Of a stretch of DNA of 64,000 nucleotides, positions 61,567-63,367 are shown one piece after another (the first letter of the stretch is position 1; each line of letters starts with the position of its first letter). Origin of the DNA: Veillonella criceti (GTDB lineage: Bacteria > Bacillota > Negativicutes > Veillonellales > Veillonellaceae); NCBI RefSeq assembly GCF_900460315.1, contig NZ_UHIO01000001.1:582001-646000 (forward strand), given 5' to 3'. The position numbers were made by a program, and so were the translations under genes. The notes under the pieces are model-generated. The model made no database searches and was not told where the DNA came from. It saw only the letters and a list, made by a program, of their open reading frames with translations.

Positions 61567-61626
61567 TATACCCATAGGGGTATATCTATATAAGCATTAT
61601 ATACCTATAGGGGTATAGGTTGTCAA
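61567..61626 (-). promoter_or_regulatory. P1B ATPase promoter with two CsoR-like operators
   Basis: Dyads TATACCCATAGGGGTATA (61567-61584) and TATACCTATAGGGGTATA (61600-61617), 33 nt apart. On the minus strand TTGACA (61621-61626) is followed by TATAAT after 19 nt, or TATATA after 17. The upstream dyad fills the spacer; the other lies just past the start. Confidence 0.8.
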
Positions 61627-61696: not shown

Positions 61697-61972
61697 TTAC
61701 TGCATATTCGCAAATCGTTCGACTGCTTTTGTAAATTTATCTAAAGTCTTATCCACATCACCATGCTCTAAGCCATCACGAACACAGTGCCGAATATGGC
61801 CTTCTAAAATAACTTGACCTACCCGATTTAAGGCTGACTTTGCTGCATTAATTTGAGATAAAATATCTTCACATGGCACATCTTCATCAACCATTCTATC
61901 AATCGCTTGTACTTGTCCGATAATCTTCTTTAAGCGACGATGTAAATTATCTGCATCCATACACTGTTTCAT
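61697..61972 (-). CDS. csoR: CsoR/RcnR family metal-sensing repressor
   Basis: A 91-residue all-helical tetrameric repressor that releases DNA on metal binding. Ligands Cys34, His59 and Cys63 (VPCEDIL; EGHIRHC) have the Cys-X24-His-X3-Cys spacing of Cu(I) CsoR, also seen in the Ni sensor InrS. GGAGG is placed for the second ATG (61972). It likely controls the adjacent P1B ATPase through the GGGGTA dyads; its own promoter lacks one. Confidence 0.88.
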   Translation of the reverse strand: MKQCMDADNLHRRLKKIIGQVQAIDRMVDEDVPCEDILSQINAAKSALNRVGQVILEGHIRHCVRDGLEHGDVDKTLDKFTKAVERFANMQ

Positions 61973-62002
61973 AAACATCCTCCATTTACCCTATTATGTT
62001 TA

Positions 62003-62031: not shown

Positions 62032-62100
62032 TAAAAAGGCCTGTTTTAACGCCATATATGAAAATCCCTCATCATTAACAAACCTTTCGTTATATATAAA

Positions 62101-62141
62101 AATATCGCAGTATATGAACTTAGTCATCGTACTGCGATATT
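62101..62141 (-). terminator. Hairpin terminator of the small-peptide transcript
   Basis: AATATCGCAGTA and TACTGCGATATT are perfect complements with a 17-nt loop; on the minus strand a TTTTATATATAA tail follows. It lies about 105 nt after the 19-codon ORF and before csoR. Confidence 0.7.
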
Positions 62142-62245
62142 CTCTGCATTTCATTATTGAATTGGTTTGTATAGCTCTCACTAAATTGCATTTTAAAAGC
62201 TACCTCGCTGCTTACACTCACTATTATTTGAAATCATATACCAAA

Positions 62246-62305
62246 TTATAGTGCTTTGTACCAGTCTTCAATCAATTGGTTAATTAAAATAAGAATTGCC
62301 ATCAT
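62246..62305 (-). CDS. Putative 19-residue peptide under a MerR-type promoter
   Basis: MMAILILINQLIEDWYKAL, stop. A hydrophobic N-terminal half and an acidic/aromatic C-terminal half suggest an amphipathic or membrane-associated peptide. AAAGGGAG lies 8 nt before the first ATG. A promoter with a perfect MerR geometry stands 69 nt upstream, and a hairpin terminator follows, so it seems to be the main coding content of a short transcript of about 250 nt. It is too short to recognise. It could also be a leader peptide or chance ORF in a small RNA. Confidence 0.45.
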   Translation of the reverse strand: MMAILILINQLIEDWYKAL

Positions 62306-62373
62306 AATAAAAACTCCCTTTCTCAAAATCTAATTTCACTAGATTCTATAGATTATTTTTTATGTATGATGTT

Positions 62374-62404
62374 ATTCTAAACTATAAAGTAGCTTTACAG
62401 TCAA
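62374..62404 (-). promoter_or_regulatory. MerR-family target promoter with 19-nt spacer and dyad
   Basis: On the minus strand: TTGACT, a 19-nt spacer, TAGAAT. The dyad ACTGTAAAG-CTA-CTTTATAGT (62381-62401; 8 of 9 pairs) fills the spacer. This is the classical architecture activated by MerR proteins, 115 nt after the end of a MerR gene on the same strand. Confidence 0.75.
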
Positions 62405-62518
62405 TAGCTTTTTTGATGAATTCCTATGAAATTTATATGAACTTTGTAAAAATACATTTGTCTTTTAATTTAGGAATTTTTACTATCTAATTTAAGCATT
62501 ATAAACTAAATATTATCT

Positions 62519-63367
62519 CTATTCAACACGTTTTACAGGTACTTGTAACATAGAAAATACTTCATCATGTAATTCTTCATCAAAAGTAGTATCTAAGAAA
62601 CAGGCGTCTACTACATCACCACATACCTCGTACCCTTCCTTTTCGATCCATCCTAACAAACGGTTCAACACGGTCACATCATTAGGACGACCTCGCTTGT
62701 ACTGACATACATATGTCCCTTCTGGCAAAGTAACTAAGGTTGATTCAAAACCGGTTGATTCAATTGGAATTCGAATATAACAACCCCCATCTTTAAGTGG
62801 TTTCTCAGTGAGCAATGACTCTTTTTTCAAAATCGTACCAAAGCTATAAGCTGGCAAAAATTCATGACTATATAAATCGCGCCACAACCCCATAGCTGTC
62901 AGATGAATATTTTGACGGTCAATGTCACCCGTTTCACTTGCTTGAAAGGGATGAAAAATAATACTTCGCGGTTTATAATGTCGTATAAATGGTGTTTCTT
63001 GTGGTTGTGAAACCGCAATCACCGCTTCTTTATACATATATAGACGCTGTTGTAAAGCGAGTCGCTTACGTCCAAGCTCCTGCAATTCCCGCTCAATCTT
63101 ACCTTCTTGTTCTACTAATAATTGTAATTCCGCTTCAGGATTTCGTTGACTAATATGTTTTTGTATATCTTTTAGACTAACACCTAAGGATTTCAAAAAA
63201 CAAATTTCACGGAGAAGTGGAATTTGAATACGGCTATAATAGCGATAGCCATTATCGGCCACATATACAGGAGAAAATAGCCTTATAGAATCATAATATA
63301 GTAAAGTGGGTCTAGTTAAACCATGCAACTTTGCCATATCACTTATGCTGATTAAATTTTCATGCAT
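62519..63367 (-). CDS. MerR family regulator with GyrI-like effector domain (BmrR-like)
   Basis: A 282-residue activator/repressor. The N-terminal winged helix is LISISDMAKLHGLTRPTLLYYDSIRLFSPVYVADNGYRYYS, followed by LREICFLKSLGVSLKDIQKHI and a long dimerising helix (about 75-115). The C-terminal half (from about 125) looks like a GyrI/AraC-E ligand-binding domain that binds bulky, often cationic drugs. No pump gene is attached; the obvious target promoter drives a 19-residue ORF instead. TAGGAGG precedes the ATG. Confidence 0.85.
   Translation of the reverse strand: MHENLISISDMAKLHGLTRPTLLYYDSIRLFSPVYVADNGYRYYSRIQIPLLREICFLKSLGVSLKDIQKHISQRNPEAELQLLVEQEGKIERELQELGRKRLALQQRLYMYKEAVIAVSQPQETPFIRHYKPRSIIFHPFQASETGDIDRQNIHLTAMGLWRDLYSHEFLPAYSFGTILKKESLLTEKPLKDGGCYIRIPIESTGFESTLVTLPEGTYVCQYKRGRPNDVTVLNRLLGWIEKEGYEVCGDVVDACFLDTTFDEELHDEVFSMLQVPVKRVE

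Follow-up and report, generated by a model that had tools for sequence, protein, structure and literature searches.

Organization of the locus

The window analysed in this study is a 64,000-bp stretch of the Veillonella criceti genome (G000:C1:582001-646000), and the cassette described here, with all its features, is located on the minus strand. It begins with a gene predicted to encode a MerR-family regulator of 282 aa (62519..63367), which was assigned by Pfam, a family profile and orthologs and is made up of an HTH, a coiled coil and an effector-like C-terminal part. Just behind this gene and on the same strand, a promoter of the MerR type (62374..62404) was read as described in an earlier note on this DNA: TTGACT-19-TAGAAT, with the -35 element at 62404-62399, the -10 element at 62379-62374 and a presumed MerR operator dyad, ACTGTAAAG-CTA-CTTTATAGT, in the spacer (62381-62401; complementary at 8 of 9 arm positions). 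Upstream of the promoter, a pair of 11-bp direct repeats, TTCATATAAAT and TTCATAGGAAT, was present (62420..62441).

A 68-nt leader (62306..62373) separates the -10 element from the start codon and contains a Shine-Dalgarno-like sequence, AAAGGGAG (62314-62321). The ORF that follows, ORF1 (62246..62305; codons 62305-62249, stop 62248-62246), encodes the 19-residue peptide MMAILILINQLIEDWYKAL, so that the ORF and ribosome site proposed ahead of the terminator were both found. The claim that this is the only good ORF before the terminator was nearly right for ORF1, except that the ORF list also held ORF2 (62120..62191), of 23 codons (MQFSESYTNQFNNEMQRISQYDD) behind a Shine-Dalgarno-like GCGAGG, which is probably not a constrained product. 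The cassette ends in an intrinsic terminator (62095..62141), in which the fold showed a 12-pair outer stem followed by a U-run.

The next gene behind the cassette is csoR (61697-61978), predicted by Pfam to encode a metal-sensitive repressor. It was shown by a promoter scan to have its own promoter, TTGACA-17-TATCAT, and is followed by a P-type ATPase gene (Pfam). Two near-palindromic copies of ATACC(C/T)ATAGGGGTAT were seen upstream of the ATPase gene (61570-61625), and these presumably fit what is to be expected of CsoR operators. csoR was found next to the cassette in 6 of the 7 genomes compared for the genus (G000-G006); in G002 the cassette is present and a crcB-like gene (assigned by eye) follows it instead. 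The G002 locus (L048) also showed long inverted repeats, GGCCCCGTATGTTGGGGGTAC with its partner and a second type, CCCCCTCTATACACGGGGC, repeated behind the peptide. Since the neighbours of the regulator change between genomes, nothing that adjoins the cassette indicates a pathway. As to a mobile origin, relatives of the regulator were absent from viral contigs and the region gave no match in plasmids.

Conservation of the promoter and dyad

The region was matched in all seven genomes of the genus, in G002 over 60 bases only. In a search that tolerated up to 3 mismatches, the dyad was found with 0 mismatches exactly once in each genome, beside merR; the additional matches were the same site on the opposite strand in six genomes, and G000 and G006 each also had a single site with 3 mismatches. 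As the reversed-pattern control gave 0 sites in all seven genomes, the dyad exceeds chance, and within the tolerance of this search the regulator would have a single target promoter, that of ORF1. No drug exporter was found as a target. All seven promoters have the form TTGACT-19-TAGAAT/TATACT with the dyad included, and the two main subclades showed 99% promoter identity (six genomes; G002 omitted).

The direct repeats were found without mismatch in G000, G001, and G006, and no match within 3 mismatches was found in the other four genomes; their reversed control gave 2 matches in G000. Tandem copies of the 11-bp repeats were also seen elsewhere in G001 (G001:C6:149293-149336). We take such paired 11-bp direct repeats to resemble the sites of OmpR/PhoB-type response regulators.

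ORF1 is conserved at the amino-acid level

A peptide ORF was present behind the promoter in all seven genomes, encoding 19-20 residues. The variants were MMAILILINQLIEDWYKAL (G000 and G006), MMAILILINQLLEDWYKAL (G001), MMAILILINKAIEDWLKTF (G003 and G005), MLAILILINQAIEDWLKTF (G004), and MLAILILIQQMLEDFAQKMM (G002). Positions M1, A3 to I8, E13, and D14 were invariant, the most conserved part being the hydrophobic N-terminus.

Comparison of G000 with G006 showed 6 synonymous and 0 nonsynonymous changes in ORF1, and comparison of G003 with G004 showed changes at 7.5 of 10.3 synonymous versus 2.5 of 46.7 nonsynonymous sites. When the same base changes were placed at random sites, amino-acid changes this few were obtained with P 0.001 (G000-G006), 0.011 (G000-G001), and 0.00035 (G003-G004); these are 3 of the 21 genome pairs, two of which share G000. 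Read in either alternative frame, nearly all of the changes were nonsynonymous. Between the two main subclades (six of the seven genomes, G002 omitted), ORF1 showed 73% identity, with 65, 89, and 56% at codon positions 1, 2, and 3. Outside ORF1, the 60 upstream bases were 55% identical and the 5'UTR was 45% identical; identity was 27% in the interval between ORF1 and the terminator and 50% in the terminator itself. These comparisons indicate that the amino-acid sequence of ORF1 is under purifying selection across the genus. Synonymous-biased change among Veillonella genomes had been named beforehand as support for coding, and this pattern was found, together with a dyad and an ORF1 kept in all seven genomes.

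The output had been described as either a short peptide or a small RNA. Since the changes in ORF1 are mostly synonymous and the untranslated parts drift, the conserved product would be the peptide rather than an sRNA. The transcript, at about 270 nt, could still act as a small regulatory RNA, or as a dual-function RNA in which the ORF is secondary; it is predicted to be short and to end at a strong terminator, and the downstream DNA is 84% identical within the close subclade. The low identity of the untranslated parts between subclades (45 and 27%), set against the 89% at codon position 2 of ORF1, makes this explanation improbable in our view. In addition, Rfam gave no family above threshold (3 sub-threshold matches, E 0.46-3.8), and the stretch from ORF1 to the terminator folded no better than shuffles (z 0.83). 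The hairpin and U-run at 62141-62095 folded at -17.7 kcal/mol (z -5.74, with none of 200 shuffles as stable); this terminator was missing from the consensus terminator scan because of the loop limit of 8 in that scan. A conserved hairpin in the 5'UTR was looked for and was not convincing, with z -0.4 to -2.2 in six genomes (G005 omitted, its leader being the same as that of G003).

An ATG ORF of 18-23 codons was found behind ORF1 in all seven genomes. For ORF2, synonymous versus nonsynonymous changes per site were 1.5/9.2 versus 6.5/50.8 (G000-G001), 3.5/11.5 versus 7.5/57.5 (G000-G006), 2.0/10.2 versus 7.0/49.8 (G001-G006), and 0/12.1 versus 2/44.9 (G003-G005). No clear amino-acid constraint was seen in these four pairs, a mild one being possible, and ORF2 was rejected as a second peptide.

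The arrangement of ORF1, ORF2, terminator and csoR could also be that of a cis-acting leader, in which translation of the peptide, possibly with arrest of the nascent chain, governs whether transcription continues past the terminator into csoR and the copper-type ATPase genes. The position of csoR in six of the seven genomes, the extension of ORF2 into the terminator stem and the concentration of conservation in the hydrophobic N-terminus all fit such a leader. However, G002 keeps the cassette in front of a different gene, csoR has a promoter of its own, and the peptide also keeps positions 13-14 and its amphipathic pattern, for which reasons a csoR leader peptide is disfavoured and is given little weight here.

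With a peptide profile, all seven copies of the genus were recovered (E 4e-12 to 1.5e-9), and the matches in 64 other class genomes were only partial (7-16 of 19 positions, E 0.006 to 1), many of them inside long frames. As far as tested, the peptide appears to be restricted to the genus, with no convincing match outside it among 380 class genomes. The same profile gave one match to PDB sequences, at E 1.

Predicted properties of the peptide

The peptide starts with eight hydrophobic residues, M-[ML]-A-I-L-I-L-I, behind which lies an amphipathic stretch carrying the invariant E-D. The hydrophobic moment from residue 8 to the end was 0.54-0.75, and no more than 1.4% of 2000 composition shuffles attained as much (four of five variants); the charge was 0 to -1 (four of five variants). 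The hydrophobic start and the strongly amphipathic stretch suggest a helix that is embedded in the membrane or rests on its surface.

Being short, hydrophobic and amphipathic, the peptide might also be a toxin-like or secreted amphipathic peptide under chemical control, comparable to type I toxins or phenol-soluble modulins. We consider this unlikely, as its charge is 0 to -1, as neither an antitoxin RNA nor an exporter was noticed beside it when the adjoining DNA was read by eye, and as it is conserved together with its own activator in the manner of a metabolic or stress target.

The regulator

Orthologs of the regulator were found in all seven genomes of the genus, the six others being 55-92% identical to the window protein; a MerR of Veillonella sp. 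R32 is 92% identical to it. The N-terminal MerR HTH of the window protein was matched by PF13411 (MerR_1; E 2.3e-13) and PF00376 (E 6.7e-8), both above cut-off. With phmmer, the matches of the window protein to SkgA and BmrR lay within the first 83-109 residues, and a nine-member family profile matched BmrR (positions 1-253 of 282, E 3.7e-20) as well as EcmrR (12-280, E 8.8e-14). A GyrI-like domain was detected by Pfam in four of the nine family members (best E 4e-4), the window protein not among them. The earlier description as a BmrR-like MerR/GyrI-domain protein is therefore supported as a layout by the profile match to BmrR, which runs on through the effector part, but for the window protein Pfam lists no GyrI-like domain. 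An AlphaFold model of the regulator made from six distant sequences was of low confidence (pLDDT 56, pTM 0.33).

Residue 29 of the window MerR was seen to be Arg (DSIRLF); in the 25 other rows of the comparison this position is G, D, N or A. In G003, G004, and G005 (L049, L050, and L051) the merR frame runs about 50-75 polar codons upstream from an ATG with a ribosome-like site, so that the regulator of these genomes may be extended at its N-terminus. A second regulator copy, L016 (G006:C83), 39% identical, was found without a 19-spacer promoter behind it, and another, L017 (G001:C3), was interrupted by stop codons; this second copy adjoins a cystathionine-synthase-like gene (by eye). Relatives that were 25-33% identical were found in Metabacillus, Brevibacillus and Bacteroidales, where no 19-spacer promoter was present behind merR.

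Relatives of the regulator are linked to UbiD

At E 1e-25 the regulator was found in 8 of 61 genomes of the order, which are the seven of the genus and G025. At E 1e-40 it was found in 22 of 380 class genomes, 15 of them outside the genus, and in 12 of these 15 the regulator is followed by a 19-spacer promoter and a UbiD gene (G025, G465, G475, G485, G486, G508, G540, G547, G548, G595, G732, and G763). The promoters of these twelve genomes have the orientation of merR and lie 9-116 bp past its stop, and all except that of G540 (TTGACCATA) start with TTGACTGTA. The Pfam UbiD model was matched by all twelve targets and by that of G413 at E 2e-48 to 2e-53, well above cut-off. G413 was obtained in a phylum search, and its regulator is divergent from UbiD, with two 19-spacer promoters.

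As regards the remaining three class genomes outside the genus, G535 has the promoter with a ubiX-like gene (by eye) next, no 19-spacer promoter was found behind merR in G514, and only a partial regulator copy was found in G515. G475 contains five regulator copies, of which L102 is the only UbiD case; in a further copy, L111, the promoter precedes a gene other than UbiD, and three copies (L113-L115) have no promoter behind merR. In G272 a more distant relative (L085) was seen with a 19-spacer promoter that begins at the stop codon and with ferredoxin and aldehyde-oxidoreductase-like genes (by eye) behind it. We read the G475 and G272 loci as further changes of target within the regulator group.

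For three UbiD targets tested, the best NCBIfam model was VdcC (433-483 bits, below the cut-off of 650), and the general NCBIfam UbiD model was just below its cut-off. VdcC is subunit C of non-oxidative hydroxyarylic acid decarboxylases. In the operon of G025, one gene scored above cut-off as a UbiX prenyltransferase and another below cut-off as a DASS-type symporter. Given that VdcC was the best model at a score below its cut-off and that the general UbiD model also fell just short, the substrate of the UbiD-linked cassettes is probably, though not certainly, a hydroxyaromatic acid. The earlier note had contrasted the peptide with the pump that a BmrR relative would normally drive. This contrast did not stand: the nearest relatives of the regulator precede a UbiD decarboxylase and not a drug exporter, so that the contrast is rather with an aromatic-acid decarboxylase, and cationic drugs are not obvious inducers.

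Proposed change of target from UbiD to peptide

UbiD was absent from all seven genomes of the genus, whereas 9 of 14 controls had it. The start of the peptide corresponds in position to that of UbiD in the relatives, the distance from the -10 element to the start codon being 60-78 nt for the peptide and 40-94 nt for UbiD in 11 of 12 cases (L105, L107, L111, and G413 omitted). In a regulator tree of 33 rows, the seven peptide-linked MerRs formed one group (100/100), nested in a 26-row group (98/98) with 14 UbiD/UbiX-linked MerRs; the second G000 paralog, L108 (partial) and L110 (a copy of L099) were omitted from the tree, and its ubiD label includes G535. Inside the 26-row group, the tree, rooted at the midpoint, does not order the peptide- and UbiD-linked branches. 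The simplest reading, though not a proven one, is that UbiD was lost in the genus and the switch was retained; with a tree of this kind, that the peptide replaced UbiD is the parsimonious reading.

In 21 local DNA comparisons with UbiD 5' regions, z ranged from -1.3 to 3.3 and five comparisons were more than 2 SD above shuffles, so that the leader may share some ancestry with these regions. A tblastn search of UbiD, UbiX and the transporter against the seven loci gave only one UbiX match, at E 0.80, and no clear trace of a UbiD remnant was found in either analysis. That ORF1 begins at the UbiD start position, and that five of the DNA comparisons exceeded shuffles, could be explained if it were a frame that arose by chance or what is left of a decayed UbiD gene; the purifying selection on ORF1 across the genus and the nearly empty tblastn result make this very improbable.

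The effector parts of peptide- and UbiD-linked regulators showed 35% identity, compared to 19% with five outgroup regulators and 48% among the UbiD-linked ones. From residue 110 on, 29 positions were common to at least 90% of 21 regulators, some of them also in outgroups. This identity and the common positions hint at a related ligand for both kinds of regulator.

Proposed function of the cassette

Our preferred explanation, to which we assign a probability of roughly 0.6, is that the genus kept the sensor cassette of its UbiD-linked relatives and that its output here is a genus-specific, amphipathic, probably membrane-associated micropeptide acting as the effector. The cassette would be self-contained, with a MerR regulator directly followed by one target promoter with a 19-bp spacer. 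On promoters with such a spacer a MerR dimer keeps the promoter inactive, and ligand binding realigns it. The regulator would likewise bind the target promoter and, with its ligand, realign it for RNA polymerase. By analogy to the UbiD-linked relatives, the inducer would be a hydroxyaromatic, aromatic or similar hydrophobic compound. In a genus that lacks UbiD, the promoter would drive the 19-20 residue peptide instead, and the peptide could work at the membrane as a small effector, adjusting either a membrane protein or the permeability of the membrane while the inducer is present.

A more speculative extension, which we hold as a tentative possibility, is that the decarboxylase that cleared the aromatic inducer was lost and that a newborn 19-residue membrane peptide under the old one-target switch took over protection, e.g., through membrane permeability, a transporter or feedback into the hydrophobic pocket of the regulator.

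The cassette is of interest since regulator and promoter are kept while the output differs completely between related bacteria, an enzyme in some and a 19-residue micropeptide, of a size usually missed by annotation, in others. With one regulator, one promoter and one tiny product, it offers a clean test case for micropeptide roles, and its UbiD-linked relatives suggest hydroxyaromatic acids as the inducer class. If the peptide arose under an existing promoter, it would be a bounded example of the birth of a new small gene.

Comparison with known systems

Judged from sequence, the regulator belongs to a familiar class and the peptide output appears to be new, with a putative role as a membrane effector. 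AcrZ, MgrB, and KdpF are small helical membrane regulators whose targets are larger proteins of the membrane and which are often induced by stress. They are longer than 19 residues, and to our knowledge have no link to a MerR sensor. Laboratory-selected hydrophobic peptides (Arp1-3; PMC6550523) insert into the membrane, partly reduce the membrane potential and lower aminoglycoside uptake, which shows that a phenotype can arise from peptides like this one. Arp1-3 resemble the present peptide in being small and hydrophobic, and they act by membrane insertion; they differ in that they were selected from random libraries and are related to cationic drugs, whereas ORF1 occurs naturally, is conserved and lies behind a sensor gene of its own. 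Among titles and abstract openings, with most subscription journals outside the search, neither a MerR driving a micropeptide nor a MerR-UbiD cassette was found, and none of the literature searched combined Veillonella, small proteins and Ribo-seq.

The cassette is similar to the multidrug-responsive activators of the BmrR/EcmrR group in the profile match over most of the protein and in the 19-bp-spacer target promoter. It differs from them in that the output is no drug exporter, that the GyrI-like model was matched in only four of nine family members, and that the structure model is of low confidence. In organization the cassette also resembles the MerR-UbiD/VdcC cassettes of other Negativicutes, which share the regulator subfamily, the promoter position, the TTGACTGTA start and a similar distance to the start codon. 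Those cassettes drive a UbiD decarboxylase, whereas the cassette of this genus, which is without UbiD, drives a 19-residue peptide.
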